From: Lishizhenia tianjinensis
GTDB taxonomy: Bacteria > Bacteroidota > Bacteroidia > Flavobacteriales_D > Crocinitomicaceae
Assembly: GCF_900116425.1 (NCBI RefSeq)
Contig: NZ_FPAS01000002.1
Location: forward strand, 204,537-268,536
Direction: 5' to 3'
DNA length: 64,000 nucleotides
In this document: positions 9,621-27,047 of the stretch, piece after piece
Numbering within the stretch: position 1 is the stretch's first letter
Layout: the number at the start of each line of letters is the position of its first letter
The notes under the pieces: generated by a model
Databases searched by the model: none
Told to the model about the DNA's origin: nothing
What the model saw: the letters and a program-made list of their open reading frames with translations, nothing else
Position numbers and translations under genes: made by a program

Positions 9621-9728
9621 GAATTAAGAGTGTGAGCGATGAGTTGTGATCGGCGTCACGAGGGCCCAGTGCGGTGGATGAAAGTTAAGCACCAAAATCG
9701 CAAAGTTTTATAGCACACCTTGTTAAAT

Positions 9729-9758
9729 TTGAAAGTTGCATTTCTTCCTGTACTTTTA
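9729..9758 (+). promoter_or_regulatory. Promoter of the T9SS-sorted serine hydrolase
   Basis: TTG (9729-9731), exactly 19 nt, then TACTTTTA (9751-9758), seven of eight matches to TAnnTTTG. It lies between the alternative TTG codon at 9720 and the ATG at 9777, which supports the ATG as the real start. Confidence 0.55.
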
Positions 9759-9776
9759 AGTACCAATTCAAACGTC

Positions 9777-11072
9777 ATGAAAAAGCTTGTATTTCTTTTG
9801 ATGCTCCTTCCTTTTTTGGGAGCTGCGCAAATTTATTTTCCACCTTCAACCTCTAACCAATGGGATACGCTGGGTGTGGATGAGTTGGGTTGGTGTGATA
9901 ATTATGTAGATTCTTTGTACGATTATTTGTCGGATAACAACACCAAAGCCTTTATCCTAATGAAGGATGGAAAGATCGTTTTGGAGCAGTATTTTGATGG
10001 ATTTCAGTCAGATGATTTTTGGTATTGGGCTTCGGCAGGGAAAACTTTGACGGCCTTTTCAATAGGTTTGGCGCAGCAGCAAGGTGCTTTGAATATTAAC
10101 GATACCACTTCTGATTATTTAGGATCGGGATGGACTTCTTTAACAACTGCCCAAGAAGAAAAAATTACCATTAAACATCAACTATCTATGACTTCTGGAT
10201 TAGATGATATTTCTGAATTTGAATGTACAGCAGACAGTTGTTTGACTTATTTGGCCGATGCTGGAACGCGTTGGGCCTATCATAACGCACCCTATACTTT
10301 ATTGACGGATGTTTTGGAGCAAGCCACGGGGCAAATTCCCAACTTTTTTGTGGCTCAGCACATTAAAAATCCAACGGGTATGGATGGGGTTTATATTAAT
10401 CAAGGGTTTAATAAGGTTTATACCAGCACACCGCGTAGTATGGCGCGTTTTTCATTATTGATGTTGAACAATGGAAATTGGGATGGAACACCAATTATGA
10501 CCGACGCTAATTACTTTTCGGAAATGGTCAATAGTTCACAGAATTTGAATGAGGCCTATGGTTATTTGTGGTGGTTGAACGGGAAGAATTCTTTTATGTT
10601 ACCGAGTACTCAAGTTGTATTGCCGGGTAAATTATTTCCCAATGCACCCGATGAAACTTATGCCGCTTTGGGTAAGAATGGTCAGTTTATCAATGTGTTA
10701 CCTTCTCAAGGAATTACATGGATACGCATGGGGAATGCACCGAGCAATTTGTTTGTTCCTTATTTGATGAACGATGAGATCTGGCAACGGTTGAATGGGC
10801 TGATGTGTACAACAAATGCGGTGGATAAGGTGGACCCAATGGATATAAGCTTGTACCCGAATCCTGCACAGGATGTTTTACATGTAGAATTTGAAAAAGG
10901 TAGGTCTGGAAATTACCGTGTACTGGATGTGATGGGTAGAGAGGTCTTAAAGGGACGCTTTGAAAATGAGCTAAAAGTAAGCGTTGATGTGGCAGGATTG
11001 GAAAAGGGTGTTTATCGTTTGTTAGTGGAGCGTGAAGGGAGTGTTGAGGTGAAGGTTTGGGTGAAGGAGTGA
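9777..11072 (+). CDS. Secreted serine hydrolase (class C beta-lactamase fold) with T9SS type A domain
   Basis: A 431-residue exported hydrolase of the beta-lactamase/penicillin-binding superfamily (esterase, peptidase or beta-lactamase-like). A signal peptide covers about residues 1-18. The catalytic SxxK is S86-A-G-K89 and the second motif Y168-H-N170. From about residue 350 a T9SS type A sorting domain begins (SLYPNPAQDVLHVEF ... GLEKGVYRLLVE), so the protein is probably exported across the outer membrane and surface-anchored. An upstream in-frame TTG at 9720 would add 19 residues, but the promoter lies inside that stretch. The natural substrate is unknown; resistance should not be assumed. 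Confidence 0.85.
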   Translation: MKKLVFLLMLLPFLGAAQIYFPPSTSNQWDTLGVDELGWCDNYVDSLYDYLSDNNTKAFILMKDGKIVLEQYFDGFQSDDFWYWASAGKTLTAFSIGLAQQQGALNINDTTSDYLGSGWTSLTTAQEEKITIKHQLSMTSGLDDISEFECTADSCLTYLADAGTRWAYHNAPYTLLTDVLEQATGQIPNFFVAQHIKNPTGMDGVYINQGFNKVYTSTPRSMARFSLLMLNNGNWDGTPIMTDANYFSEMVNSSQNLNEAYGYLWWLNGKNSFMLPSTQVVLPGKLFPNAPDETYAALGKNGQFINVLPSQGITWIRMGNAPSNLFVPYLMNDEIWQRLNGLMCTTNAVDKVDPMDISLYPNPAQDVLHVEFEKGRSGNYRVLDVMGREVLKGRFENELKVSVDVAGLEKGVYRLLVEREGSVEVKVWVKE

Positions 11073-11096
11073 GTGTGTTTTTTTGTATATTATTTT

Positions 11097-11313
11097 GATT
11101 AGTCGCATAATTGCCAAAGCCTGAAGCCCTTGATTTTACTACTTTTCAAGATGTATTCGAATTTAATTTTGTTGATTAATAGCATGAAAAAAGGGTTAAT
11201 ACTACGATTTTGTAGTATTCACCCTTTTCATTTTCTTTAAATATTTCTGTTGATTAGTTCGCTAAGTCTAGTAAACACTAGCATTTGTACTTTTGGCAAA
11301 CATGCGACTAATC
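11097..11313. mobile_element. MITE-like inverted-repeat element, copy 1 (217 bp)
   Basis: Ends are inverted repeats: 11097-11117 (GATTAGTCGCATAATTGCCAA) against the reverse complement of 11293-11313, 19 of 21 matching. A 17-pair hairpin with one mismatch (11190-11206 / 11213-11229, loop GATTTT) sits almost exactly at its centre and could act as a two-way terminator. It fills the gap between two convergent genes. No reading frame and no clear target-site duplication seen. A second element with the same ends and nearly the same length lies at 25755-25972. Confidence 0.6.
11190..11229. terminator. Strong central hairpin, possible bidirectional terminator
   Basis: AAAAGGGT-x-AATACTAC / GTAGTATT-x-ACCCTTTT, 17-pair stem with one mismatch and a six-base loop, flanked by A-rich sequence on the left and T-rich sequence on the right. 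It lies between the convergent serine hydrolase and VOC genes and could end both transcripts. Confidence 0.6.
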
Positions 11314-11324
11314 AGGGAAATCTT

Positions 11325-12248
11325 CTATTTTTTCATCCCCGAAAAATCCGTCGTCAAAAAGAAAATATTCCCCGCCGGATCGGTAAACATATAATTCCCT
11401 GGCAATACTTGTCCGCCAAATTCCAAAGCTTCAACAGCGTAGTTATTTGCTCTCATCTCGGCTGCCAAAGAATCATTTTCGTTGATTCCATGTCCAGAGT
11501 ATGTAAACAACTCTCCGTGCCACATACCTTTGGTTTCGTGTAAACCTAGGGTAAGTTGACCGTCATATCCAATTGTATATCTGTATGGAACTCCTTCTTC
11601 GTGTATACCTTGACTCTCAAATCCAAGAGCCGTGTAATAGGCCAAACTACTGTCAACATTTTCTACCGCAAGTGCGTACTCTTGAAAAATTCCTGCTTTA
11701 GGGTTCGGGAAGTCAAACTTTTTATTTGGATTGAAAACAATATCAGCAACCTGAACATCTTCTTTTGGTGCTCGAGGGTGGTTAATTACAACATATCCTA
11801 AAGAATCTGGAGCGAAATATACCTTGAACCAAGGATCCCCATTCTCTGCCGTGAACTCCATTTGTGGATCTATATTTATTGCTTTAAGCGTTTTGTAAAC
11901 GTTTACTGCGTCTTCTGAGTGGTAAGCTGGTCCCATATAATTCATGGTATCTTCATTGATGGATATGCTCATACTTCCATCATACATCGCTGTCCATTTC
12001 CAAGGGGTAGAACTTGAATCTTCGATTTGCCAACCCAGTGTTTCGTAAAATTTTATGGTTTCCTCATACTTTTGAGTTCCTATCATTATTTTAACCGATT
12101 CTCCTAAGAGTGGAGTGATTTCTGCTGCTGTGGTATCAACGGCCATGGTGTCAACTACGGGCACTTCTGGTGTTGATTTGACCTCTTCAGATTTGCACGA
12201 GCAAAGCGCCAAAACAGCACAGCTTATTGTAAAAAATATCTTTTTCAT
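11325..12248 (-). CDS. VOC-domain lipoprotein
   Basis: A 307-residue lipoprotein with two vicinal-oxygen-chelate (glyoxalase/bleomycin-resistance fold) modules: one from about residue 45 (VKIMIGTQKYEETIKFYETLGW) and one from about residue 190 (YALAVENVDSSLAYYTALGF). The signal peptide ends in LCSC with lipidated C18. VOC proteins include metal-dependent lyases and dioxygenases, but the metal ligands cannot be assigned safely here. The start at 12248 (MKKIFF) is preferred over an in-frame codon nine residues upstream because it begins the signal peptide. Upstream, TACCTTTA with a cTTT box 19 nt before it resembles a promoter. Confidence 0.78.
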   Translation of the reverse strand: MKKIFFTISCAVLALCSCKSEEVKSTPEVPVVDTMAVDTTAAEITPLLGESVKIMIGTQKYEETIKFYETLGWQIEDSSSTPWKWTAMYDGSMSISINEDTMNYMGPAYHSEDAVNVYKTLKAINIDPQMEFTAENGDPWFKVYFAPDSLGYVVINHPRAPKEDVQVADIVFNPNKKFDFPNPKAGIFQEYALAVENVDSSLAYYTALGFESQGIHEEGVPYRYTIGYDGQLTLGLHETKGMWHGELFTYSGHGINENDSLAAEMRANNYAVEALEFGGQVLPGNYMFTDPAGNIFFLTTDFSGMKK

Positions 12249-12312
12249 ACTATAGTGTTTGAGGTAAAGGTACACCTATTTTTAGAGCTGTAAAGAGGTG
12301 GTGTAGAATTTT

Positions 12313-13047
12313 CTAACGCGTTAGGGCAACGTAGTCTTTTAATACCTTTTTCAGAAAGGTCATTTTCTTTTTAGGAACTTCATCCAATTGAAGTTTAAGC
12401 GCAAGCTCATTCACCAAATCTATAGCAATTTCTCGCGTAGCTGGATTGTTGTATTCCTCAACGCGTTGAATTACCTTTTTGATGAACATCATATCCTCAT
12501 CTGTAAATTGCTCTACTTCTGGATACTGAATTTTTGTCTTTTCTTTGTTGAGGTTGAGTACTTGACTAAGGGTGTAGTCGTAAGTATGGTTAAGTTTCAC
12601 TACTATCGTATTGGCCATCATGTCTGCCAAACGTTGCGAACGTTTAGAAATTAGTATCACAACCGCTTCAACAGGTAGAAGAGCAAAGGCCAAACCTTTG
12701 AAGAGCCAACGCAAGAAGTATTCGTTCAAAGTGGCATTGTCTCCATTAATTTTCATTACACGTATACCCAAGGCTTTTTTACCTATGGTCTGTCCTTTGG
12801 TGATGTACTCCAGCATTGGAGAGTAGAAAAAAGCAGGTAGGGTAAGAATAAAATAGAGGACGGTGTAGATGTAAAACTCATCGTTTCTGAGCGATAACCC
12901 TGAGTTACTCATGACAATGTTTACGATAAGCATGTAAAACCCGAGAATAACTAAATCCAAAAGGTAGGCGGTGAAACGCTGACCTAGTGCGGCAAGTTCA
13001 AAGGTGATTTGAACGTTTTGTGCGGTTTTAATGGAAATGGTTTTCAT
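12313..13047 (-). CDS. RDD family membrane protein
   Basis: A 244-residue membrane protein with an RDD domain in the first 160 residues (LGQRFTAYLLDLVILGFYM near the N-terminus and GKKALGIRVMKINGD around residue 90), about three helices, and a soluble C-terminal tail. RDD proteins have been linked to ion transport or osmotic phenotypes, but no general function is known. It is divergent from the SpoIIM/MoxR operon, an arrangement I recall from other Bacteroidota, which suggests a shared role. Its promoter, TTG (complement of 13079-13081), 17 nt, TATATTAG (complement of 13054-13061), ends only 6 nt before the ATG. Confidence 0.85.
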   Translation of the reverse strand: MKTISIKTAQNVQITFELAALGQRFTAYLLDLVILGFYMLIVNIVMSNSGLSLRNDEFYIYTVLYFILTLPAFFYSPMLEYITKGQTIGKKALGIRVMKINGDNATLNEYFLRWLFKGLAFALLPVEAVVILISKRSQRLADMMANTIVVKLNHTYDYTLSQVLNLNKEKTKIQYPEVEQFTDEDMMFIKKVIQRVEEYNNPATREIAIDLVNELALKLQLDEVPKKKMTFLKKVLKDYVALTR

Positions 13048-13148
13048 GTGTTGCTAATATAATTGAAATTGCCGAAATCAAGTCCCCGGTTAAATTTTTC
13101 ATCAAACTTTCTTCTAGACACAGAACAGGGAAATATTCTTTCTTTTAC

Positions 13149-13178
13149 TTGATAGCTTAATTCTATATATTATTTTAG
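13149..13178 (+). promoter_or_regulatory. Promoter of the SpoIIM-MoxR-DUF58 operon
   Basis: TTG (13149-13151), exactly 19 nt, TATTTTAG (13171-13178), seven of eight matches to TAnnTTTG; start codon about 40 nt downstream. It is divergent from the RDD promoter about 90 bp away. Confidence 0.55.
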
Positions 13179-13217
13179 CTAGCCTGATGTAAGAAACCTT
13201 ACCCAGTATACTACAGA

Positions 13218-15128
13218 ATGAAAGAAACTGCCTTCATAAATAAAAACAAAGAGAAGTGGAAACGCTTTGAAAAGCTTAGCAAAGGAAACAATACGGATCC
13301 GGAGGAGCTCGGTGAATTATTTACGGAGGTAAACGAAGACCTAAGTTATGCTCAAACTTTTTACGAGCGTAGAACCGTTCGAGCATATTTAAATCAGGCC
13401 GCGCAAGGGGTTTATGGTCGACTCTATAAACAGAAAGGAGATTCTTTAAAGAAATATTGGAAAACGTGGTCGGTTGTGATTCCCTTGGAGTTGTATAAAT
13501 CGCGCAAAAACCTACTTTTTGCCTTGATCATGTTTATGCTTTGGGTAGTGATAGGTGCTGTAACCACACATTTCTTTCCCGATTTTGTAGACATGGCTGC
13601 AGGAAGAGGAATGATAGCCCGTGGAGAGCGCTTCATAGCCCAAGATGATCCCTTTGGATTCTACGGGGATTCTGAGAGTATAGACATGTTTTTTATGATA
13701 ACCCTCAACAATATCAAGGTAGCCTTTTTATGTTTTTTAGGGGGAATATTGTTTTCTTTTGGAACCCATTACTTAGTATTTAAGAATGGTATGATGCTGG
13801 GCTCTTTTCAGTATTTCTATGTGTTGAAAGGCTTAGGTTTATCTTCATTTTTAGCTATATGGATACATGGAGCCTTTGAAATTAGTGCCATCGTGGTAGC
13901 TGCAGGAGCAGGTTTTACCTTGGGACATAGTTTACTCTTTCCCGGTTCTTATTCGCGTTTACAATCTTTTCAATTAGGAGCAAAGAGGTCTATGCGCATC
14001 ATGATAGCCTTGGTTCCTGTTTTTATCATTGCAGGTTTCTTAGAAAGTTTTGTTACGCGTAATTATGCTAGTTTACCCGATTGGTCAAAATGGTGCATCA
14101 TTATTTTTTCTTTTGCGCTAATGCTGATTTATTTTGTGATTTATCCGCAGTATTTAGCCAGAAAGTATCCTGAACTTTTAGTAGAAAATGAAAGTGTAAA
14201 TCAAATCCCATCGCACAAAGTAAGCTTGTTCAAGATAAGAAGTTTTACAGATGTTATTTCCGATAGCTTTCAATTGTATAGACAGAAGTTCTATGTCTTT
14301 ATGAAGATCAACTTAAATCTAACTTTCCCGATGATGTTGGTCCTTACCGTCTTTCAATTTTATACACATAGCTATGATTTTGGTTTCGAATACCCAGAGG
14401 CATGGATCAATTTATTTAGTATACTTTTCGGAAACCCTTATGGCGAAACTTTTTTAGGAACGGATTTTATAGCCTTGTTTGCGTGGGTTTTACCTTTCAC
14501 CACCTTGGCCTCTGCGGTTCTTTTTGCTTTGGTAGATGAGGAGCCAAAGTTTTCTTGGAAATCTTATTTCAACTACCTTAAAAAACAAGGGTTTAAAATC
14601 TTTGTTGGTGCTTGCATCATTTACGCTTGTATTGTGCTTTTGCCGAGTTATCTGATCTGGATGGGGATTTTTATCTATCCTTTCTTCTTTAATATGATGT
14701 CTTTAGGAGTGAATGAAGACAAAGGTTTGGGACTTGTGAAGTACCTCAAGTTTGGAGCGAAATCATGGGTGTTTAATTTTGTTTTAATCCTCTTTCTCAT
14801 CGCCATGGTTGCCTTATTTGCCCAACCTATAGCCTTTATTATATCGAGTGCTAGTTCAGGTGAAGTTCCCGATTTGTTAGATGTGTTTACAGATTTTATA
14901 CGCATGATTTTAACAGAGGAAACGGCTTATACGATAGAGGTGGTAAATGCCATCCGTATATTGGTTTACCTCCTCTTCATTTTATTTGTTTTCCCACTGG
15001 TAATTATTGCTTCTGCTTTATCGAGTTATAAAGCCATAGAAGAAGTTGAAGCACCGGCTTTACGTAAAGAATTCGAAAACTTTGGTAAAAGAAGTAGAAC
15101 TACAGAAACGAAAGGAGATTATGAGTAA
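13218..15128 (+). CDS. SpoIIM-family membrane protein with extra C-terminal membrane domain
   Basis: 636 residues. The first ~330 resemble stage II sporulation protein M family membrane proteins (soluble N-terminus, then helices from about residue 95, with the GGILFSFGTHYLVFKNGMMLG region and IWIHGAFEISAIVVAAGAG). The second half (about 345-620) is a further hydrophobic domain with six or so helices beginning after YRQKFYVFMKINLN; I cannot name its family with confidence. SpoIIM relatives in non-sporulating bacteria are usually about half this length, so this looks like a fusion. It overlaps the next gene by 8 nt (ATGAGTAA), so translation is probably coupled. Function in this setting unknown. 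Confidence 0.78.
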   Translation: MKETAFINKNKEKWKRFEKLSKGNNTDPEELGELFTEVNEDLSYAQTFYERRTVRAYLNQAAQGVYGRLYKQKGDSLKKYWKTWSVVIPLELYKSRKNLLFALIMFMLWVVIGAVTTHFFPDFVDMAAGRGMIARGERFIAQDDPFGFYGDSESIDMFFMITLNNIKVAFLCFLGGILFSFGTHYLVFKNGMMLGSFQYFYVLKGLGLSSFLAIWIHGAFEISAIVVAAGAGFTLGHSLLFPGSYSRLQSFQLGAKRSMRIMIALVPVFIIAGFLESFVTRNYASLPDWSKWCIIIFSFALMLIYFVIYPQYLARKYPELLVENESVNQIPSHKVSLFKIRSFTDVISDSFQLYRQKFYVFMKINLNLTFPMMLVLTVFQFYTHSYDFGFEYPEAWINLFSILFGNPYGETFLGTDFIALFAWVLPFTTLASAVLFALVDEEPKFSWKSYFNYLKKQGFKIFVGACIIYACIVLLPSYLIWMGIFIYPFFFNMMSLGVNEDKGLGLVKYLKFGAKSWVFNFVLILFLIAMVALFAQPIAFIISSASSGEVPDLLDVFTDFIRMILTEETAYTIEVVNAIRILVYLLFILFVFPLVIIASALSSYKAIEEVEAPALRKEFENFGKRSRTTETKGDYE

Positions 15129-15990
15129 AGTGATTGCTGCCATACTGCTTTTGTTTGCTTTTGCGAGTTGGGGACAAGATGCCGAGCTAGAAAAAGAATG
15201 GAATAAATTACAGAAAGAGCTAGAATACGGTGAGGCACGTCGTAAAAGTGGTCCTTCTTATGAAAGAATTTACCCCAATAAAATAGAAGATTACGTTGAT
15301 GATGAAGAGGGGGAAGGCTACACCACACCGGCAGAAAATGCCAATGATGAGGAAATAATTGAAAATAGAAATAGTCAATTTGGTCCGTACACTGGAGATG
15401 GTGGGATTAAAAAGAATAACAGAGAGTCAGTTATCAAACAGGCGCCCACCTATGAACCAGATATACCCGACCTACCGGAGGTGGAACCTTTGGATGTAGA
15501 TCCTCCCAAGCGTTGGGAAATTTCTGAGAACATTTGGCAAGTAATTTTAATAATTCTTCTACTGATAATCGTAGTTGCATTGCTTTATTATTTCCTCATT
15601 CGCAACGTCAACACAGAAGGTGAAAGGCAGTACGTTGTGCCTGATTTAGAAGAATGGAACCCGGAAGAAGTGAGTAAGTCGGAGTTGGAAATACTTCTTG
15701 AAAAGGCTTTGGAAAAGGAGGATTACAGGCAGTGTGTGCGCGTGTATTACACTTTTATTCTGCAATCACTCATCAAAAAAGGATGGATCAAGTACAAACA
15801 AGATAAAACCAATGTACATTATCAAATAGAAATGATGCATAGACCGGTTAATGCAGAATTTTCTAAGGCAGTGCGCTTGTATGAGTTGGTGTGGTACGGA
15901 CATTACGATATCAATGCCCTTATTTACCAAAGTTTAGAACCTGAGTTGAAAGCTCTGTATAAAAAAATAGATGCAAATGAGGGGGAATAG
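15121..15990 (+). CDS. DUF4129 domain protein
   Basis: 289 residues. A signal peptide (about 1-18), an acidic extracytoplasmic region, one membrane helix (about 138-160), and a cytoplasmic C-terminal DUF4129-like domain (about 185-285; ALEKEDYRQCVRVYYTFILQSL then YELVWYGHYDI). DUF4129 is found with transglutaminases and MoxR/DUF58 genes; its function is unknown. I chose the ATG at 15121 rather than one at 15046 because it begins a signal peptide and has AAAGGAG a few bases upstream, one of the few Shine-Dalgarno-like sites here. It overlaps both neighbours. Confidence 0.8.
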   Translation: MSKVIAAILLLFAFASWGQDAELEKEWNKLQKELEYGEARRKSGPSYERIYPNKIEDYVDDEEGEGYTTPAENANDEEIIENRNSQFGPYTGDGGIKKNNRESVIKQAPTYEPDIPDLPEVEPLDVDPPKRWEISENIWQVILIILLLIIVVALLYYFLIRNVNTEGERQYVVPDLEEWNPEEVSKSELEILLEKALEKEDYRQCVRVYYTFILQSLIKKGWIKYKQDKTNVHYQIEMMHRPVNAEFSKAVRLYELVWYGHYDINALIYQSLEPELKALYKKIDANEGE

Positions 15991-17650
15991 ATTGGTAATA
16001 TTAGCGGGGTCGCTTATACTCTTTGTGGTCATTGTAGTTTTAGTGCTCAATGCGCCGGCAAAGGAAGAAGGAGATCAACCCAAGAATAAAGATGCCTATT
16101 TCTCCAATAAATGGGTAGAGAGATACGGTTGGGAGAATTTACACCCCAACGGGTTGTATGTGTTTAATGAATTGGTAAACAAGAGTAAGCAATTTGAAGA
16201 GGTTTACTATGTTAAAAATTACCGTTTACTCGATTCACTTTTGCAAGAAGACAGTGCCGCTTTTGCCTTTATAGGCGATAATTTTTACCTCACCAATGAT
16301 GAGATAAGCGCTTTGATGGCCAGTGTAGGTAGAGGATCGCAGTTGTTTTATTCCTGTGATGTGATGGATTATAACCTTCACGGTCAACTTCTGAGTTTTA
16401 GTGATTATAAATATGTGTACGACAAAGAAGTGGTGCTTCAAAAAGATACCAGCCAAATTCGACTTGCACGTAGGGTAGAAGGGGACACTGTATATTCGAA
16501 GTGGAATGTGTTTGACACTACTAATTTCTTTGGTTTTACTTCTCAATTAAGTTTAAAAGGTTATCCTTTTAGCATAGAAATGAATTACGGGGTAGGGAAA
16601 ATATTTGGTCACCTCAACCCTGAATCCTTTTTCAATTACCAATTAAAAACAGCAGAAGGATTTAAACACTACCAAGCTACTTTCGGGAAAATGAAGGCCA
16701 AAAAACTTTATTTCTTAGAATTTGCCAATTACGATCCGGAGATAGAGCCTGACAGAAACAGCGAGGAAGAAAATGAATCTTTGTTTAAACCTCTGTTGAA
16801 ATACCCGAGTTTTAAATGGGCCTTGTTTACCTTCATTATAGGTTTTATCGCTTTCATGCTGTTTAGAAGCAAAAGAGAACGACCTATCATTAGAATTCGA
16901 GATGAAAAACAGCTTTCTACACTAAGCTATGTAGATACGATAGCAGGAATTTACTTTGATAGAAAACAGCCCGAAGATGCCTACAAAATGATGAAGGCCA
17001 ATTTCTATGTGAATGTGCAGAAATACTTTTACCTCGATTTAAAAAATGAGAAGGAAAAGGGGAATGTTTTGTTAAGCGAAAAAGCAAATATGCCCTTGGC
17101 GGAGGTGGATTATCTGCTTTCATTGGTTGAAAGTAAAAAGGAAATTAGTTTTCAGGATTTAGAAACCCTGAACAATGAATTGCGCAAGTTCTATTTACAA
17201 TCGGAAATATGGAAGGAAGAAGAGCAGGCTAAAATTGAGGAAAGTTATCACACCTTAAACCGAGGTTTATTTACGCCTTCCTTGCTCATGGTATTTGGTG
17301 CGCTAGATATCGCTGCCTCTTTCATGTTATTAACTTATTCTGTGGGTGGAGGTATTTTATTGTGGCCAACCGCTATCATGAGTTTTGTTTGGGCCAACCG
17401 TATGTTAACCCGACCAATTATGCGATACAATGCCTTTGAAATTATACTTTATCCGCTCTTTGGTAAGGAAGTGAAATTGAAGATGGAAGATGTTTACCAA
17501 GCCAAAAATACAGGTAAAGGTTTGGTGCTAAAGGTTATCGATCAAGAAGATGTGGAAGTAAGTTTATTGCATTTAGATAAAAGAAATATTAAGCTTTTGG
17601 AAAGCCTGGTTTTCCAAATAAACAACAAAGGAAATGATAGAAGAAAATAA
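15971..17650 (+). CDS. DUF4350 domain membrane protein
   Basis: 559 residues. N-terminal membrane anchor (about 5-25), an extracytoplasmic region resembling DUF4350 (about 35-270; LHPNGLYVFNELVN, then LLDSLLQEDSAAFAFIGDNFYL), a helix near 280-298, a cytoplasmic stretch and two further hydrophobic segments around 435-475. DUF4350 proteins accompany MoxR and DUF58 genes. It overlaps the DUF4129 gene by 20 nt; an alternative ATG at 15977 would shorten it by two residues. Its own end overlaps the MoxR start by 17 nt. Function unknown. Confidence 0.78.
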   Translation: MQMRGNRLVILAGSLILFVVIVVLVLNAPAKEEGDQPKNKDAYFSNKWVERYGWENLHPNGLYVFNELVNKSKQFEEVYYVKNYRLLDSLLQEDSAAFAFIGDNFYLTNDEISALMASVGRGSQLFYSCDVMDYNLHGQLLSFSDYKYVYDKEVVLQKDTSQIRLARRVEGDTVYSKWNVFDTTNFFGFTSQLSLKGYPFSIEMNYGVGKIFGHLNPESFFNYQLKTAEGFKHYQATFGKMKAKKLYFLEFANYDPEIEPDRNSEEENESLFKPLLKYPSFKWALFTFIIGFIAFMLFRSKRERPIIRIRDEKQLSTLSYVDTIAGIYFDRKQPEDAYKMMKANFYVNVQKYFYLDLKNEKEKGNVLLSEKANMPLAEVDYLLSLVESKKEISFQDLETLNNELRKFYLQSEIWKEEEQAKIEESYHTLNRGLFTPSLLMVFGALDIAASFMLLTYSVGGGILLWPTAIMSFVWANRMLTRPIMRYNAFEIILYPLFGKEVKLKMEDVYQAKNTGKGLVLKVIDQEDVEVSLLHLDKRNIKLLESLVFQINNKGNDRRK

Positions 17651-18713
17651 TTTAGAAGCCAACGAAAACGAAGCTGTAAATCCTGAAACACCTCAGGAAG
17701 ATGGACAACAAGAGGAGGTGGTTACTTCTTCAGGCAATGCTTTTGGGTTTGAAAGAGAAAATGAAGATTTGATTTGGTTGACCCAGAAGGTAAATGACAT
17801 ACGCATGCAATTTGCTAAGTATGTCATTGGTCAGCAAGAAATGGTTGAATTACTAATGGCGGGTATTTTCTCGGCGGGTCACATCTTATTAGAAGGTGTT
17901 CCGGGGGTAGCCAAAACCCTTTCTTCTAAAGTATTGGCCAAGGCCTTGGATGTTGATTTTTCGCGTATACAGTTTACGCCAGATCTCATGCCCAGTGATG
18001 TAATAGGTACTTCTATTTTTAACATGAATGAAAGTAAGTTCAACTTTAAAAAGGGTCCAATTTTCTCCAACATCGTCCTTATTGATGAGATCAACAGAGC
18101 CCCGGCGAAAACACAGGCGGCTTTGTTTGAGGTAATGGAAGAAAGACAAATTACTTACGATGGTGTAGAATACGCCATGCAGTTTCCTTTCCTCGTGGTA
18201 GCTACCCAAAACCCGGTAGAACAAGAAGGGACTTACAATTTACCCGAAGCACAATTAGACAGATTCTTATTTAAAATCAAGCTAGATTATCCTTCACAAG
18301 TAGATGAAACGATGATATTGCAGCGCTACAAATCCAACATCAAGGCACCGAGTTTAGATGAGGTGATGGCGGTGATCAATGCAGACGATGTAAGACGTGT
18401 GCAAGCGTTGGTGAAAAATATTATCGTTGAAGATAAATTGTTGGATTACATCGCTGCCATAACGGTGAAAACTAGAAATCACGGAAAAGTTTATTTAGGG
18501 GCCTCGCCAAGGGCTTCCTTGGCCATCTTGAAAAGTGCAAAAGCTATGGCTGCCATCAAGGGAAGAGACTTTGTTACCCCAGACGATATTCAATTTGTTG
18601 CTCCACATGTCTTAAACCACCGTTTAATTCTTACCCCAGAAGCAGAAATTGAAGGCTATGCAACTGAGGATGTAATTGCGGAAATTGTTAAAAACATAGA
18701 GGTGCCTAGATAA
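17634..18713 (+). CDS. MoxR-family AAA+ ATPase
   Basis: 359 residues, cytosolic. An acidic N-terminal tail (about 1-40) precedes the AAA_3 domain: Walker A GVPGVAKT around residues 88-96, Walker B VLIDEINRAPAKTQ around 148, and the MoxR sensor region ATQNPVEQEGTYNLPEAQLDRF around 193. MoxR ATPases act with VWA-domain partners as chaperone-like remodellers. The next gene (DUF58, VWA-like) starts 1 nt after its stop, matching the usual MoxR-DUF58 pair. AAAGG precedes the start. Confidence 0.92.
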   Translation: MIEENNLEANENEAVNPETPQEDGQQEEVVTSSGNAFGFERENEDLIWLTQKVNDIRMQFAKYVIGQQEMVELLMAGIFSAGHILLEGVPGVAKTLSSKVLAKALDVDFSRIQFTPDLMPSDVIGTSIFNMNESKFNFKKGPIFSNIVLIDEINRAPAKTQAALFEVMEERQITYDGVEYAMQFPFLVVATQNPVEQEGTYNLPEAQLDRFLFKIKLDYPSQVDETMILQRYKSNIKAPSLDEVMAVINADDVRRVQALVKNIIVEDKLLDYIAAITVKTRNHGKVYLGASPRASLAILKSAKAMAAIKGRDFVTPDDIQFVAPHVLNHRLILTPEAEIEGYATEDVIAEIVKNIEVPR

Positions 18714-18714
18714 G

Positions 18715-20037
18715 ATGATAAAACACCTGTTCATATCGCGTTTTTTCTTTGTGCTTCTTGCTGGAGTGGTTATCCTCTTTTTATTGAGTTATGCTTGGGG
18801 CATTTTGTTCCTAGTGGCGCAAATTGGGGTGCTGAGTTTAATTGCCCTGAGTGTCTTGGATATACTCGTTCTCTTTGCTACAAAGAAGGTGATTAAGTAC
18901 CAACGTATTTTTCCCAAAAGAGGGGATTTAAATGATGAAGCTTTGATAAGTCTGCGTGTGGTAAACTTAAACGCTCAAGGTTTACATGTTAACATTTATG
19001 AAGGCTTTCCCGAAGAATTGCAAGAACGAACTAAGGTGTTTGGAGGATTTTTAGGGCCGAAAAAATCTCAAAGTTTTCACTACCAGTTTACCCCGAAAAG
19101 GAGGGGAGACTATAATTTTGAAGATACCCACATTTTTGTACAAAGCGTTTTGCGTTTGGTGAAAAGGCGCATTGTTGTGGAAAGTAAAGATGTGATGGAG
19201 GTTTACCCTTCTATTCAGCAAATGAAGCTCTATGAACTCAAAGTTTTCAATCAGTCTCAGGTAAGAGGAATTAAGAAAATCAGGAGTTTGGGACACAATA
19301 ATGAGTTTGAACAAATCAAAAATTACATACAGGGAGACGACATCAGAACCATCAATTGGAAAGCTACTTCGCGTAGAAATGAGTTGATGGTGAACCAATA
19401 TCAAGACCAACGTGCACAGCATGTGTATTCTGTAATTGATAAATCGCGTTCCATGGAAATGGCTTTTGAGGGGATGACCTTATTAGATTATGCCATCAAT
19501 TCTTCTTTGGTATTCTCTAACATTGCCCTGAGAAAGGGAGATAAAAAGGGAGTGATTACTTATGCAGATAAGATAGGAACTAAATTAGCTGCAGAAGGAG
19601 GAAGAGCACACCTCAAACGCGTGATGGAAGTTTTGTACAATCAGCGTACACAGTTTAAAGAAGCCAACTTTCCTTTGTTGTACCAAAGTTTGCGCTCGAG
19701 TGTAAAAGTGAGAAGTTTATTGATGCTTTATACCAATTTCGAAACCGAGCAAGCCATGCACAGAGCTTTGCCGTTATTGCGTAAACTCAATGCAAAACAT
19801 TTACTGGTGGTTGTCTTCTTCGAAAACACCCAATTGCGTGAAAGCATCGTGAAGCCGCCTGAAAATATGCGTGATATTTATGTGGGAGCCGTTGCCGAAA
19901 CTGCCGTAAACGTAAAACGAAAAATTGCTTTGGAATTGAATAGAAATGGAATTCAAACCATACTTACCAAGCCCGAAGAATTAAATGTGAAAACCATTAA
20001 TAAATACCTTTCGTTAAAGTCGAAGGGTATGATTTAA
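18715..20037 (+). CDS. DUF58 (VWA-like) membrane protein
   Basis: 440 residues with two adjacent N-terminal helices (about 10-55), a beta-rich region, and the DUF58 signature GDDIRTINWKATSRRNELMV around residue 207 followed by a MIDAS-like DKSRSM motif near 240 in a VWA-like fold. It is the last gene of the operon and the usual partner of MoxR. It converges with a T9SS protein gene only 7 nt away, and I see no clear hairpin terminator between them. Confidence 0.88.
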   Translation: MIKHLFISRFFFVLLAGVVILFLLSYAWGILFLVAQIGVLSLIALSVLDILVLFATKKVIKYQRIFPKRGDLNDEALISLRVVNLNAQGLHVNIYEGFPEELQERTKVFGGFLGPKKSQSFHYQFTPKRRGDYNFEDTHIFVQSVLRLVKRRIVVESKDVMEVYPSIQQMKLYELKVFNQSQVRGIKKIRSLGHNNEFEQIKNYIQGDDIRTINWKATSRRNELMVNQYQDQRAQHVYSVIDKSRSMEMAFEGMTLLDYAINSSLVFSNIALRKGDKKGVITYADKIGTKLAAEGGRAHLKRVMEVLYNQRTQFKEANFPLLYQSLRSSVKVRSLLMLYTNFETEQAMHRALPLLRKLNAKHLLVVVFFENTQLRESIVKPPENMRDIYVGAVAETAVNVKRKIALELNRNGIQTILTKPEELNVKTINKYLSLKSKGMI

Positions 20038-20044
20038 AGTTTTC

Positions 20045-21661
20045 TCAACGTCTTAAAATTAATTTTTGGGTGATGTGTTGCTTACCTGTACTGAGATGTG
20101 CAAAATATACACCTTCACTCATTTTATCATTTAAGTTCAATAGGTGACTGGTGTTACCAGACGCGACATTTTTAATTACTTCTTGATGTACTATTTTTCC
20201 ATCCAAACTATAGAGGGTAAATTCTAAATCTACTGTTGTAGCGCTAAATAGGTCAAACTTTAACAACCCCTTGTTTGGATTTGGATACATGCGCATTTGC
20301 AAAGTTGAATTGCTCTGCTTGTTGGGTGTGTGTACGCTTAAATCTTCTCCTTGAATTAAATAGACTTTAAAGATTTGATGGCTTGCAACACTCTGAGTTC
20401 CATCGTTAACAAAAAAGATGTTGGGCGCAGAACTTTGTATACCGCCATAGATGTACCCCAAGAAGGTTGTATCTGCGGTGATGTTATGTAGTTGAAGAAC
20501 TTGATTGCTATAATGCGCTAATGAGTGATCAGCAATGAATTCTGCTCCAGAGCCCATTAATGCCGGTAATGTTAGAGGGAGTTTGTATTCCGTCATTGCT
20601 CCATTTGCATCTCGGGTAACACGTGCTATGGTATTTACAAAAGGCACATTGTTGTCTTGTACCAAAACACCTGCAGAATCATAGTACTGCGCAATTCCTC
20701 CAAAGAAAAGGGTGTGCATTTCGTTGGTGGTTGCATTGTAAAGGGGAATTACCGGACAGTGGTAATGGTTGTAATATTGCTGGAAGTTAGCTTCTAGACC
20801 ATAACCATTGGTATCTACTGTAACACTGTTTAAAAAAGGAAGGTTTACATTTTGCTGAAAAACACCAGAAAACATAGTAACACCTTGTTCACCATTAGGT
20901 AAAATTTGTGGTTCTGCATTGTAATCTCTGCGGTGCAAATTTGCGGCATCTACATGGGCCGGTAAGTGTGTAATAGTAAGGTTTAGTCCATCGTCTGTAA
21001 TTTTAAATTTACGAATGGCATTGGTGTATTCTTGTATAAATCCTGGACCATTGTTCGGACCCATAGGGTTGTATTTTCCAATGAACTTTTGTCCGCCCAA
21101 CAAGTAATAGGTATCGTAAACTTTTTGCAATCTACCACCTGTTACTTGGAATTGATTATCCGTAATTTGTCGGAAGGAACTTGTGAAAGAAGTATTATTA
21201 ACAACAGCATCTATCACTGCAGGTACATCTATAGCTGTTAAATAAGGAAAGGTAGTATGATCCCCTGCTGTGGCACTGTATCCATAACCACCTACTACGT
21301 AGAGCATATCATCTTCTTGAAAGAAATTCATGTTGGTAGAACTCAATTGTTCTTGCATACTTTGAGGTAAACTGGTTAAAGCAGTTGTCCATTTTTGCAA
21401 ACTTACCGGATCAAAAACGATGAGTTGATTGTTGTGACCTGCAATATCAAAAGAAGCCCAGGGTTGTCTTCTGTGCAATCCATCTAATCGTCCTCCAATA
21501 ATTAGCCATTTACCATTGGCCTGTCCAACAGCATAAGATTGTAATCCTCCAATCGCATTTGTATTCACCGTTTCTAAATGAATAGTTAAAGGAGTTTGAG
21601 CCGTAATTTCTGCGTGTCCCAATCCGAGTATAAGCAGTAAAAGTGCGATGATGTTTTTCAT
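20045..21661 (-). CDS. T9SS type A sorted secreted protein, Kelch-like
   Basis: 538 residues. Signal peptide (about 1-22), a long beta-rich region with repeating 'YVVGGYGYSA', 'WLIIGGRLDGLHRR' and 'FGGIAQYYD' motifs suggesting a Kelch-like propeller, and a C-terminal T9SS type A domain (RMYPNPNKGLLKFDL ... MSEGVYFAHLSTG) ending KLILRR. Start at 21661 (MKNIIALL) gives a clean signal peptide; an in-frame codon at 21703 would add 14 charged residues. It probably functions at or beyond the outer membrane; ligand unknown. Confidence 0.8.
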   Translation of the reverse strand: MKNIIALLLLILGLGHAEITAQTPLTIHLETVNTNAIGGLQSYAVGQANGKWLIIGGRLDGLHRRQPWASFDIAGHNNQLIVFDPVSLQKWTTALTSLPQSMQEQLSSTNMNFFQEDDMLYVVGGYGYSATAGDHTTFPYLTAIDVPAVIDAVVNNTSFTSSFRQITDNQFQVTGGRLQKVYDTYYLLGGQKFIGKYNPMGPNNGPGFIQEYTNAIRKFKITDDGLNLTITHLPAHVDAANLHRRDYNAEPQILPNGEQGVTMFSGVFQQNVNLPFLNSVTVDTNGYGLEANFQQYYNHYHCPVIPLYNATTNEMHTLFFGGIAQYYDSAGVLVQDNNVPFVNTIARVTRDANGAMTEYKLPLTLPALMGSGAEFIADHSLAHYSNQVLQLHNITADTTFLGYIYGGIQSSAPNIFFVNDGTQSVASHQIFKVYLIQGEDLSVHTPNKQSNSTLQMRMYPNPNKGLLKFDLFSATTVDLEFTLYSLDGKIVHQEVIKNVASGNTSHLLNLNDKMSEGVYFAHLSTGKQHITQKLILRR

Positions 21662-21774
21662 GTTAAGCAAGTTAGGAAATTCCTTCTTGTTGGGCGGTAA
21701 CAATGGTTACACTAAAAATCCTGTTTTCGTGTTGATCTTTGTCATTAAATCACTGTAGACCCTAAGTTTTGTAG

Positions 21775-21782
21775 TAATTTTG
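21775..21782 (+). promoter_or_regulatory. -7 box with start codon 4 nt downstream
   Basis: TAATTTTG, an exact TAnnTTTG match, ends 4 nt before the ATG at 21787. The -33 region is weak (aCTG at 21752-21755, 19 nt upstream). If used, the mRNA would start at or next to the start codon. Confidence 0.45.
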
Positions 21783-21786
21783 TAGC

Positions 21787-22197
21787 ATGATGAAATTTGT
21801 AATTGCTTTATTTTTAGGGTTAGTATTTTGGTCCTTTGCCATGGAGACTATGATAAAGGAACATCAACCAACTCCCTTCACTGCAAATACACAAACTTTA
21901 AGCACATCATCAGATACTTTATGTGATGTTTACATCCCTAATGCATTTACGCCAGATGGCAATGAAAACAACAATGTATTAAAGGTGTTTACCGCATGTG
22001 AGTTTGATGCCTTTGAGTTTAGGGTGTATAACAGAGCCGGTGATATTTTATTTATTAGTAAAGACCCCAACATGGCCTGGGATGGTACCTATAAAGGTAG
22101 TGTCATGCAAACAGGAACCTATGCCTACACGGTAGAGTATGTACATAGAAAAGGAGAACCGATTACTTTAGTAGGACATATATCCTTGTTAAAATAG
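21787..22197 (+). CDS. Small secreted protein that is mainly a gliding-motility (CHU_C) type B domain
   Basis: 136 residues: signal peptide (about 1-19), a 25-residue Thr/Ser-rich spacer, then a full T9SS type B domain from about residue 46 (CDVYIPNAFTPDGNENNN, VYNRAGDILF, WDGTYKG, GTYAYTVEY, GHISLLK). CHU_C domains normally end proteins of several hundred residues; here there is almost no cargo. An alternative ATG one codon later exists. It is a stand-alone gene between a convergent/divergent T9SS gene and the sigma factor gene. Confidence 0.82.
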   Translation: MMKFVIALFLGLVFWSFAMETMIKEHQPTPFTANTQTLSTSSDTLCDVYIPNAFTPDGNENNNVLKVFTACEFDAFEFRVYNRAGDILFISKDPNMAWDGTYKGSVMQTGTYAYTVEYVHRKGEPITLVGHISLLK

Positions 22198-22341
22198 TCT
22201 GTAAAATTAGGCGAAAGCGAAAAAAATAGTTGAAAGTGAACATTATTCGAGCTTATATGTTTTCTTTAGCTGATGGAAAGAAAGGGTGCTGAAAAATTAA
22301 AGTATCTATTTTCCAAATAATTGTTTATTTTCGTTTAATAC

Positions 22342-23726: not shown

Positions 23727-23779
23727 AAATCTCCCAGGGGGCGGCAGCGTACCCCACAGGAACAAAAGATATTGAAAAG

Positions 23780-23822
23780 AAAGCCCGCACAGCGACATGA
23801 GAAGCTGAGGCGGGCTTTTTCT
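23780..23822 (+). terminator. Strong rho-independent terminator
   Basis: AAAGCCCGC (23780-23788) pairs perfectly with GCGGGCTTT (23810-23818), followed by T-rich sequence. It ends the sigma/anti-sigma unit. Confidence 0.85.
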
Positions 23823-24048
23823 TTGAAAATATTTTGGACCGAGGAGTAGAGCAGAGCACCCGGTTTTAAGCACAACATGTAAATTGAAAAGTTGAATAGA
23901 AAACCCATATGTGCTTAAAAGGGAGTCCGTATCCACACAATTAACATAGATTTTATCTCCAAACAAGCCTGAGGTCTTGTCAATTTCTTAACTTAAGGTC
24001 ACGCATTTTTGTTATCGCACAACGAATGTATAAGAAAGCCCCAGCTTG
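23823..24048. other. Intergenic stretch with an 11-bp perfect inverted repeat
   Basis: No gene seen between the terminator and the dehydrogenase promoter. TTTTAAGCACA (23864-23874) is exactly inverted as TGTGCTTAAAA (23910-23920), 35 nt apart, which could be an operator-like site, a stem of a small RNA, or remnant repeat ends. Confidence 0.4.
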
Positions 24049-24080
24049 TTGATGAAAATCAACACTTTTAATTATATTTG
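24049..24080 (+). promoter_or_regulatory. Promoter of the ALDH7-type dehydrogenase
   Basis: TTG (24049-24051), 21 nt, TATATTTG (24073-24080), an exact TAnnTTTG match. The start codon at 24103 is 22 nt downstream. It overlaps the possible upstream TTG start at 24046, which argues against that start. Confidence 0.6.
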
Positions 24081-24102
24081 TTTAAAATTTAAAAATACAT
24101 AC

Positions 24103-25659
24103 ATGTCAGAAGTAATAACAGGATTTGATATACAAGAAGTACTCGATCAATTAGGACTAGAAAAGACAAATTTAGGCGCTTCGACTGGGAGCGTTTGGTT
24201 ACAGACAAAAGGTGAAGTTTTAGAATCAAAATCTCCGGTAGACGGGAAGCAAATTGGAACTGTTGTTCAGGCTACTGAGGAGGATTATCATAAAGTAGTT
24301 GAAAAAGCACAAGCGGCTTTTTTACAATGGAGAAAAGTACCTGCACCACAAAGAGGTGAAGTAGTAAGACAATTGGGTGAGAAATTGCGTGATTACAAAG
24401 AGCCCTTAGGGAAATTGGTTTCTTACGAAATGGGGAAATCTTACCAAGAAGGTTTAGGAGAAGTACAGGAAATGATAGACATCTGTGATTTCGCAGTAGG
24501 ATTATCACGTCAGTTACACGGTTTAACGATGCACTCGGAAAGACCAGGACATAGAATGTACGAACAATACCACCCACTAGGAGTTGTAGGAATTATTTCT
24601 GCGTTTAACTTCCCGGTTGCGGTATGGAGCTGGAACACGGCCTTGGCATGGGTTTGTGGAGATGCATGTATTTGGAAGCCTTCTGAGAAAACTCCTTTAA
24701 CTGCCATTGCTTGTCAGAAAATTACAGAAGAAGTATTCTCTGATAACGATGTACCTGAAGGAATTTCATCTTTAATTATAGGTGGAGCTGACTTAGGAAA
24801 ATTAATGGCAAACGATACACGTATTCCTTTAGTAAGTGCTACAGGATCTACACGTATGGGTAAATCTGTTTCTGAAGCTGTTGGAAGACGTTTAGGAAAA
24901 TCTTTATTAGAGTTGGGTGGAAACAATGCTATGATCATTACACCAAATGCAGACTTGAATGTTGTTGTTCCAGGTGCAGTGTTTGGAGCGGTAGGTACAT
25001 GTGGTCAACGTTGTACATCTACAAGAAGATTGATTATTCACGCTTCTATTTACGACAAAGTAAAAGACGTATTGGTGAATGCTTACAAGCAATTGCGTAT
25101 AGGTAATCCATTGGATGAAAACAATCATGTTGGTCCGTTAATCGATACTGACGCAGTAGCCATGTACAATGCAGCCCGTGAAAAAGTAGTAGCTGAAGGT
25201 GGTAATTTAATTGTAGAAGGTGGAGTGCTTTCTGGAGAAGGATACGAATCTGGATGTTATGTTGCTCCCGCAATTGCTGAAGCTGAAAATCACTACGAAA
25301 TCGTTCAACACGAAACTTTCGCACCAATTTTATACTTAATGAAGTACGACGGTGAAGTTGAAAATGCGATCGATATTCAAAATGGAGTGAAGCAAGGGTT
25401 ATCTTCTGCTATCATGACCACAGATTTAAGAGAAGCGGAACGTTTCTTATCTGTAGCTGGTTCTGATTGTGGAATCGCTAACGTAAACATCGGTACTTCT
25501 GGAGCAGAAATCGGTGGTGCTTTCGGTGGTGAAAAAGAAACAGGTGGTGGACGTGAGTCTGGATCTGATGCTTGGAAAGTTTACATGAGAAGACAAACAA
25601 ATACGATCAATTATACCAATGAGCTTCCTTTAGCGCAAGGTATCAAGTTCGATTTATAG
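24103..25659 (+). CDS. Aldehyde dehydrogenase, ALDH7 (antiquitin / aminoadipate-semialdehyde) type
   Basis: 518 residues, cytosolic, NAD(P)-dependent oxidation of an aldehyde to an acid. Catalytic residues are E270 in ELGGNN and nucleophile C304 in GQRCTSTRR; the cofactor-binding GSTRMG motif precedes them. The C-terminal block NIGTSGAEIGGAFGGEKETG followed by GGRESGSDAWK is characteristic of ALDH7A1-like enzymes, which oxidise alpha-aminoadipate semialdehyde in lysine breakdown. The substrate assignment is from family resemblance only, since no other lysine-catabolism gene is nearby. Codon choice is uniform and looks suited to high expression. A 19-residue N-terminal extension from TTG 24046 is possible but lies across the promoter. 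Confidence 0.9.
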   Translation: MSEVITGFDIQEVLDQLGLEKTNLGASTGSVWLQTKGEVLESKSPVDGKQIGTVVQATEEDYHKVVEKAQAAFLQWRKVPAPQRGEVVRQLGEKLRDYKEPLGKLVSYEMGKSYQEGLGEVQEMIDICDFAVGLSRQLHGLTMHSERPGHRMYEQYHPLGVVGIISAFNFPVAVWSWNTALAWVCGDACIWKPSEKTPLTAIACQKITEEVFSDNDVPEGISSLIIGGADLGKLMANDTRIPLVSATGSTRMGKSVSEAVGRRLGKSLLELGGNNAMIITPNADLNVVVPGAVFGAVGTCGQRCTSTRRLIIHASIYDKVKDVLVNAYKQLRIGNPLDENNHVGPLIDTDAVAMYNAAREKVVAEGGNLIVEGGVLSGEGYESGCYVAPAIAEAENHYEIVQHETFAPILYLMKYDGEVENAIDIQNGVKQGLSSAIMTTDLREAERFLSVAGSDCGIANVNIGTSGAEIGGAFGGEKETGGGRESGSDAWKVYMRRQTNTINYTNELPLAQGIKFDL

Positions 25660-25679
25660 GATATCATATACTAAACAGT

Positions 25680-25717: not shown

Positions 25718-25754
25718 TTGGGAGGAAATGTTTTTTGTGGGTGGATCAAACCCT

Positions 25755-25972
25755 GATTGGTCGCATGTTTGCCAGAACTCTATGTCCTTTTAAAACTATG
25801 GTTATGCTTTGGATGCCGAGCGTATTACACTCTTAATATCGTGCAGAGATTAGGTGGATAGACGGCCTAATAAGAAAAAATAGAGGAGTTTTATAAAAAA
25901 TGTAATACTATTTTTTAGCTTGTATGTATTGATTTTACTGGGGTTTTCCTCTTGGCAAATATGCGACTAATC
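25755..25972. mobile_element. MITE-like inverted-repeat element, copy 2 (218 bp)
   Basis: Ends GATTGGTCGCATGTTTGCCAG (25755-25775) and the inverted TTGGCAAATATGCGACTAATC (25952-25972) match 18 of 21. The same ends and almost the same length occur at 11097-11313. Internally I see a 9-pair AAAAAATAG/CTATTTTTT stem (25875-25914 region) and an ATTAGG..CCTAAT stem, but no convincing base-by-base similarity to copy 1. No reading frame, no clear target duplication. It lies between a terminator and the next gene's start, and any promoter of that gene must be in or just after its right end. Confidence 0.6.
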
Positions 25973-26045
25973 AAGAAATTTCATCTTTAAAAAATCCAGA
26001 ACAAAAACAAGTGCGTAGATATCATCGAACACAAAAATTGAAACG

Positions 26046-27047
26046 ATGAAATTATTTAAGCACTATGTTTTGCCAACTTTGGCTTTAGGATTAATGTTAG
26101 GAGCAACATCTTGTAAGAAAGATGATGTAGATGACACAACAGACAACACTCCAGAAACTCCGACGGAGATGAAAAGTGAAACGTATGACTACAACTTTAA
26201 CAACGGTCAGTTAGTTGCAGGAACAGCATACGCAGGAACACACATGGACAACTTAACAGCGTCTATGATGGTAGAAGAAACAGGAGATAACTCTGCGAAA
26301 ATTACTGTGACATTAGAGAACACAGTAGATGGAGAGATGTACATGATACATGCACACGATGCTGCTGATCCGGCAACAACTCCAAATGGAACACCTTACA
26401 ATGAAACACCGAATGCAGCAGTATTTACACAAATGGTAACAGGTAACGGTTCTTCTGTTTCTGTATCTCAAACCGTAGATATGTCTTTCGATGCGATTAC
26501 AACTTCTTACGAAGGATTCTTTGTAGTACACGATCCATTACAAAACTTAAGTACTACAGATTTAACAACGTACTTAGTATTGGGAACTTTCGCAAGAGCT
26601 CAAGCGGCTTACACGTTGACTTCAGAAATGTTTAACTACGATTTCAACACAGGTCAATTAGTACCTCAGTTTGCTTACGCTGGAACACATGCAAGTAACT
26701 TAGGAGCGAGCATTAAATTGCAAGAATTAGGAAGTGGTGAAACAAGAGTTACAGTAATGATAGACAACTCTATCGATGGTGAGTCTTACATGATCCACGC
26801 ACACGACGTAGCAGATCCTAACACTACACCAAACGGTACTCCTTACAACGAAACTCCAAACGCTGATGTATGTACATTAATGGCAATGGGTAACGGAGCA
26901 ACAGTTTACGCTTCTCAAAAGAGTTCATTATCAATCGCAGATATTACAACGACTTACGAAGGGTTCTTTGTAGTACACGATCCATTACAAGCGATCAGCA
27001 CAACTGATCCTACAACTTACGTAATCTTGGGTCAATTCGCGAGATAA
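26046..27047 (+). CDS. Lipoprotein with two tandem CHRD/SodC-like domains
   Basis: 333 residues. Type II signal peptide with lipidated C23 (GATSCKKDD), an acidic linker, then two homologous modules, about 44-184 and 192-333. Both carry MIHAHD(A/V)ADP, TPNGTPYNETPNA and FFVVHDPLQ. The His-x-His-Asp pattern and overall length recall CHRD domains, which share a fold with Cu/Zn superoxide dismutase, but this is a visual impression and not proven. The two modules are diverged, so the duplication is not recent. Codon use is uniform, suggesting strong expression. Followed by a terminator. Confidence 0.72.
   Translation: MKLFKHYVLPTLALGLMLGATSCKKDDVDDTTDNTPETPTEMKSETYDYNFNNGQLVAGTAYAGTHMDNLTASMMVEETGDNSAKITVTLENTVDGEMYMIHAHDAADPATTPNGTPYNETPNAAVFTQMVTGNGSSVSVSQTVDMSFDAITTSYEGFFVVHDPLQNLSTTDLTTYLVLGTFARAQAAYTLTSEMFNYDFNTGQLVPQFAYAGTHASNLGASIKLQELGSGETRVTVMIDNSIDGESYMIHAHDVADPNTTPNGTPYNETPNADVCTLMAMGNGATVYASQKSSLSIADITTTYEGFFVVHDPLQAISTTDPTTYVILGQFAR

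Follow-up and report, generated by a model that had tools for sequence, protein, structure and literature searches.

Short paired-end elements of Lishizhenia tianjinensis as putative binding sites of a catalytically dead IS1595-derived transposase lineage

Two short gene-less elements with the same inverted ends lie in the window, the whole stretch of 64,000 nucleotides of Lishizhenia tianjinensis DNA that was analysed. We consider it probable (about 0.6) that both are MITE-like pairs of binding sites for a lineage of IS1595-derived transposases that is catalytically dead and inherited vertically. The short units look like sites that a tamed transposase has left behind or still uses.

Window copies and family 1

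The two copies are listed in Table 1. Their ends pair as inverted repeats at 20 of 22 positions in copy 1 and at 19 of 22 in copy 2, and the 22-bp end pattern has four matches in the window against 0.01 expected from shuffled sequences. The first-pass annotation had described copy 1 with its inverted ends at 11097-11313 and a second copy with the same ends. Both are real; copy 1 was drawn one base short on each side, and copy 2 also takes the extent given in Table 1. A central hairpin had been claimed for copy 1 as well, and its centre proved to be at most 3 nt from that of the element. No plausible coding sequence lies inside copy 1, as had been noted, and the sole overlap is a 97-aa ORF (11250-11543) that runs over the right end, antisense to the adjoining gene. 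The copy takes up nearly all of the space between two convergent genes, leaving 23 bp on one side and 10 bp on the other. An outward TTGGCA in the end of copy 1 reads together with a flanking AATAAT (11089-11117) as a sigma-70-like promoter; one such promoter was found against a shuffled mean of 1.0, and hence it is weak.

Table 1. Positions in the window of the two copies, their parts and the adjoining genes
Feature	Positions	Strand	Remarks
Copy 1 (short, gene-less, family 1)	11096..11314	.	219 bp
Copy 1, left end	11096..11117	+	TGATTAGTCGCATAATTGCCAA
Copy 1, right end, inverted	11293..11314	-	TGATTAGTCGCATGTTTGCCAA
Copy 1, central hairpin	11186..11229	.	fold; possible two-sided terminator
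Copy 2 (short, gene-less, family 1)	25754..25973	.	220 bp
Copy 2, left end	25754..25775	+	
Copy 2, right end, inverted	25952..25973	-	
Left neighbour of copy 1	9720..11072	+	Beta-lactamase family (PF00144) with Por_Secre_tail sorting domain
Right neighbour of copy 1	11325..12275	-	glyoxalase family (PF00903), convergent
Left neighbour of copy 2	24046..25659	+	aldehyde dehydrogenase (PF00171)
Right neighbour of copy 2	26046..27047	+	333-aa ORF, 0 Pfam matches at 0.001

The 22-bp end was found at 21 sites of the genome with up to 3 mismatches, and the reversed pattern used as a control gave 0. Together with three more diverged partner ends (C8:317920, C8:158432 and C2:1128899), these sites make up 12 elements. 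Eight are short and gene-less (204, 196, 219, 220, 197, 209, 198 and 208 bp), so that the proposed repeated unit with a common end and a narrow size range is borne out by eight copies of 196-220 bp. The other four are longer (928, 917, 918 and 918 bp). Each of them codes for one intact protein of 268-269 aa (one of the genes is at C9:144553-145356), and identity with the first of these proteins is 56-67%. Eight short gene-less elements that have their inverted ends in common with four gene-bearing relatives agree with the definition of MITEs. However, the common interior expected of copies of one MITE is absent. The eight interiors are unrelated over 28 pairs in both orientations (global-alignment z from -3.7 to 3.1; two pairs are at 3.0-3.1 when compared with simple shuffles), and no blastn match of one short copy with another has an E below 0.07. 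Therefore, the copies are not recent offspring of one MITE. The best other match of the copy 1 interior in the genome is a stretch of just 23 bp (E 0.002), and its capture from elsewhere in the genome was rejected.

Three of the eight short copies are located within 9 kb of one parent, as the transposase-like genes are called here, and the clustering of this family is thus partial. The copies in the window are more than 50 kb away from any family-1 parent on their own contig, whereas some other families have their sites in clusters, and this speaks against our preferred explanation.

Parent proteins and their ends

The genome contains 17 IS1595-like ORFs; five are close and twelve are at 29-36%, one of the latter in two pieces. 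The four family-1 proteins score 63-78 bits against NF033547 (IS1595), and one of them passes the cut-off of 75. Against two IS1595 Pfam models, seven of their eight matches are below cut-off, and their matches with the zinc ribbon PF12760 are weak (10.6-21.2 bits; cut-off 25.4). The cysteines C31, C34 and C52 are present in all 17 proteins. Both inverted ends enclose a unit of 0.9-0.95 kb with its single gene in 15 of the 17 parents, as is typical of IS1595, and no recognisable pair of own ends was found for the L056 and L059 parents. Family searches of four parents gave no match with an HUH transposase of IS200 ancestry, and the IS1595 models were the best matches.

The alignment with canonical relatives showed that the aspartates of the first and second catalytic columns do not occur together in any of the 17 proteins. 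L057 keeps only the first and L102 only the second; the first column holds E in three proteins, the second is a gap in most of them, and the third varies. Three canonical controls of the ISEc70/ISPma1 type, which we take to represent the DDN/DDE subgroups, have both aspartates with N or D in the third place. The acidic positions still conserved in the 17 proteins are E13, E92 (15), D162 (16) and E246 (17). A relocated or altered active site may exist, judging from the alignment, because D162 is kept in 16 of 17 proteins and E246 and N223 in all of them. In proteins from G007, G010 and G019, two of four have D in the first column and none has it in the second; therefore, the loss may be gradual. 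Five Bacteroidales relatives (L069, L071-L074) keep the second catalytic aspartate while the first is gone, which indicates that partial loss also occurs outside the lineage of this genome. A search of the rest of the genome for a canonical IS1595 domain at 1e-5 gave no match other than the C-terminal portion of a parent. On this ground we rejected the idea that an intact canonical IS1595 transposase encoded in the same genome mobilises the elements in trans. On visual inspection, several parents (e.g. L045, L056 and L057) have in common a leader like TAACTTA...TCAACCTAA ahead of the start codon, and it is perhaps a promoter or operator.

The ends were compared over 66 ends of 33 elements (15 parents and 18 short ones, with the L056 and L059 parents left out), which were aligned on the CGC core. 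Their conserved core is TGA-TA--CGC-----T[GA]CC. Three intact control elements of the ISEc70/ISPma1 type end in CCTGATTACC. The terminal CC is lost in the elements of this genome: position -2 is C in 16 of 66 ends, which is 24% against an assumed background of 16%, and position -1 is C or T in 57 of 66. The target-site duplication expected by the first-pass annotation was not obtained. A direct repeat of at least 7/8 at the homologous boundary occurs in 0 of the 33 elements, and perfect 8-bp duplications flank all three controls. Among four boundary placements tried, -3 alone gave 1/33, and unpaired flanks give 0.6%. A broader scan (121 placements, three lengths) yielded no consistent direct-repeat signal (largest z 2.6). 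A G043 element (L162:9438-10421) has the 6-bp direct repeat AACTGT at its edges; its G211 orthologue is flanked by AATTGT and TACCGA, and the repeat is not kept.

At the sequence level, the proteins and their ends are shown to co-diverge. The Mantel correlation between protein and end distances is 0.62 (p 5e-5) for the 15 parents, and r is 0.60 (p 0.007) for 11 parents with one per close family. The first-pass annotation had read the window copies as non-autonomous transposable elements with a transposase elsewhere in the genome. A transposase-like gene does lie elsewhere between the same ends, in the four long relatives, but its product is without the catalytic residues.

Selection, spread and proposed mechanism

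In an unrooted tree of 39 of the 44 aligned rows (without the five Bacteroidales rows L069 and L071-L074; L067, with 190 aa, had already been removed on account of its length), the 17 proteins of this genome are separated from 22 other rows by one branch with support 99/97. Five G006 proteins are likewise on one side of a branch (100/99), and seven G043 proteins split into two groups. Among the five close paralogues, pS is 0.64-0.80, which is near saturation, and pN is 0.23-0.32.

The parents of G043 and G211, which are congeners of each other, were compared over six G211 parents and seven G043 stretches. Three of the six occupy the locus of a G043 parent, with collinearity over 10.7-15.3 kb at 83-88% identity. 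The dN/dS values of these orthologous parents are 0.13, 0.20 and 0.12. Values are lower (0.00-0.09) in 23 of the 26 flanking ORFs and 0.12-0.22 in the other three. The resident parents are under purifying selection, yet they are among the faster-evolving genes of their loci. With boundaries set by motif, the N-terminal part is 95, 97 and 88% identical in the three pairs and the C-terminal part 82, 81 and 82%; the former catalytic middle is the lowest part with 67, 67 and 68%. That a parent gene stays at its locus under selection suggests some advantage for the host, or at least a role other than transposition.

There are also signs of spread. Homology between the G211 element L198 and the L162 element runs precisely from end to end of the unit (72% over 985 bp), and the flanks are unrelated. 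For L199 and L201 of G211, no matching locus was found among the seven G043 stretches. In one related family, the ends and the parent are present in a G010 region and absent from the collinear region of its congener G030; this comparison covers one of two G010 parent loci, and the difference is a gain in one or a loss in the other. The unit-bounded copy and the presence/absence difference together indicate that the units have spread. The sample of relatives for presence and absence consisted of 59 genomes, 0 of them of the same genus. As a rough figure, the family alignment is matched at 1e-20 in 57 of 399 genomes from an even draw of the order, a count that includes some canonical IS1595 proteins (e.g. 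in G032 and G040), with six candidates scored per genome. A scan of genome contigs gave ten distant relatives at 22-29%, and a plasmid search gave 134 records, all below 60% identity. The phage search gave one partial match, and viral contigs searched by protein and by end pattern gave no useful relatives.

The following mechanism is proposed. The protein has kept its N-terminal part, which presumably binds DNA and would consist of a putative zinc ribbon (the weak Pfam match) followed by a predicted helix-turn-helix. This domain would bind the conserved inner part of each end, and the cognate protein would bring the two ends of a short element together in a loop, which its ancestor did as the step before cleavage. 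Binding, and not cutting, would be what selection keeps now. The short elements would then be pairs of binding sites with an interior free to drift. New copies would be rare and would arise through another recombinase or through host repair or recombination. We infer selection on the ends of the short copies because their interiors are unrelated, an argument that is weaker if the interiors never shared an ancestor. The near-saturated synonymous sites of the parents make the same point about selection. The paired units may serve gene regulation, termination, chromosome folding or the element itself.

A more ambitious reading is possible, and we hold it tentatively. The lineage, although devoid of the aspartates and of the cleavage bases, may still multiply as end-bounded units, either by a new joining chemistry or as a host system for genome organisation or regulation that spreads by recombination. 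In detail, the 17 proteins would have diversified, most of them with their own ends, and the host would maintain them; short satellites of paired sites would often lie close to the parent. The apparent spread without catalytic aspartates is a mechanistic puzzle, and up to 17 distinct proteins, 15 with their own ends, are involved in one genome.

The lineage resembles IS1595 elements of the ISPma1/ISEc70 type and their MITE or passenger derivatives in its weak zinc-ribbon and IS1595 matches, in having one gene per unit of about 0.9-1.0 kb, and in ends that are similar over TGATTA. IS1595 is described as usually making 8-bp duplications and as having a zinc finger and a DDE transposase (PMC8101967). 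The lineage of this genome differs in that the catalytic aspartates, the terminal CC and the 8-bp target duplication are missing. Also, its copies are single and diverged rather than near-identical.

The known domesticated prokaryotic transposases with short satellite sites of their own are mainly the RAYT-REPIN pairs. REPINs number in the hundreds; in contrast, the sites described here are few (16 ends in gene-less family-1 copies). RAYTs are described as distinct single-copy genes with REPIN clusters nearby and with a phylogeny that largely tracks that of the species (PMC3116915). The two systems are alike in having distinct single-copy genes with their own short paired intergenic sites, some of them nearby and some vertically kept. 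They are unlike in that RAYTs come from an IS200-like ancestor, whereas the protein of this genome is derived from IS1595 and is without catalytic residues. Catalytically dead domesticated transposases of eukaryotes (e.g. ALP1 and FHY3/FAR1) are likewise transposase-derived proteins that lost transposition and serve the host. However, the genes of this genome are mostly still located between inverted ends, with gene-less paired ends in the same genome. Should our interpretation be true, this would be a second independent case of a transposase with satellite sites, one that is DDE-based, with catalysis lost and the N-terminal domain kept. Such a case would permit the direct question of what the host gains from such proteins. 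A literature search of titles and abstracts, with the founding IS1595 paper outside its scope, returned no catalysis-free IS1595 lineage with satellite ends, which is weak evidence of novelty.

Other readings and genomic context

The units could be ordinary MITEs of an ordinary insertion sequence, with a transposase that is active through misaligned residues or was so until recently, and with duplications that have decayed. Short gene-less and longer gene-bearing copies with common ends, the unit-bounded copy in G211, the lineage-specific radiations in the tree and the G010/G030 difference would all be explained in this way. So would a passenger: at L161 (G000 C2:1170695-1171222), L095-family ends surround a DUF1801 gene of 127 aa that replaces the transposase-like gene, in a unit (L095a) of 522-528 bp counted with the short ones. 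We regard this reading as unlikely. The lack of any protein with both aspartates among the 17, the fastest evolution of the protein middle in all three orthologous pairs, the missing target duplications and terminal CC, the unrelated interiors and the selection on parents at fixed loci all stand against it.

A further reading is that of host regulatory or terminator cassettes that never moved, namely paired operators of local transcription factors, with copy 1 as a shared terminator. The gene context of the elements speaks for it. All of the 32 paired elements examined, with L054 left out of the count, are intergenic (13 between tandem genes, 9 convergent, 9 divergent and 1 not assigned), and one of them overlaps a doubtful 138-aa ORF. 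Some lone ends sit within coding DNA, and other lone or tandem ends are upstream of genes. End searches covered the whole genome for four families; for the remaining families, they covered neighbourhoods of 40 kb (20 kb in the case of L095) and 448 kb of C8. Since the neighbourhoods were selected around parents, clustering was tested by the genome-wide searches only. All 13 sites of one family, some of them lone ends, are within 30.5 kb of the parent, and all 4 sites of another are within 10.3 kb, both in line with this reading. The L054 family has no short copy in the genome, and its sole sites are the two ends of its parent. Cognate short pairs were found near the parents L053 (three), L055, L057 and L059 (two), and none in the neighbourhoods of L048, L052, L058, L060 and L102. 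The neighbourhoods in G006, G007, G010, G019 and G043 were searched for inverted pairs of at least 18/22.

Immobile cassettes are nevertheless improbable. The presence/absence difference between the congeners G010 and G030, the L198 copy at another locus and the passenger gene within one unit all speak against them. Besides, the immediate flanking genes of the parents of this genome are not clearly shared with those five genomes among the best 15 pairs. A block of two genes is found both near the parent L102 (at 14-17 kb) and near one of the G010 parents (at about 8 kb). One gene adjoining elements in both G010 and G019 matches at 38% over 263 aa, which is taken as domain sharing. As for the terminator, the hairpin of copy 1 could end the transcripts of both convergent neighbours, and the shared terminator of the first-pass annotation stands as a possibility for this copy. 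However, a simple scan called no terminator at the hairpin, and the hairpin is absent from the rest of the family.

The structured RNA that had been offered as another possibility is contradicted by the folding results. The whole copies 1 and 2 fold far below their shuffles (z -8.4 and -5.1), mainly because the two ends pair with each other. The copy 1 interior folds with z -3.07 and -2.59 (60 shuffles per strand), and the 16 other gene-less interiors range from -1.88 to +2.14, copy 2 among them with +0.45 and -0.35. Only copy 1 has the strong central hairpin; the family as a whole does not share it. A family of structured RNA genes with paired ends can practically be dismissed in spite of the low energy of the whole copies, given that 16 of 17 gene-less interiors are unremarkable without a common folding tendency, the eight family-1 interiors are unrelated in sequence, the same ends flank protein genes and Rfam has no match over window positions 10900-26100; an element-wide RNA was rejected on the folding and Rfam results.

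Some ends of other families are arranged differently. Three and two L061-family ends in the same orientation are located at G000 C8:303001-303238 and C8:326917-327099, upstream of two paralogous genes that are 34% identical and that we take to be thioredoxin-like; one of these ends reaches into the final bases of the gene before it. G010 also has three ends in the same orientation upstream of a gene (L170:2593-2845). Another L061-family end (G000 C8:330510-330531) is within an intact 1112-aa ORF with AAA domains. In a check of the interiors other than that of copy 1 against 0.89 Mb of sequence, the L053a and L055a interiors had matches of 25-38 bp, and the short copies of L061 contained AT-rich stretches that also occur at other places. 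AT-rich repeats of the type AAATCTCCAATTTC are seen repeatedly beside L061-family ends and at other sites.
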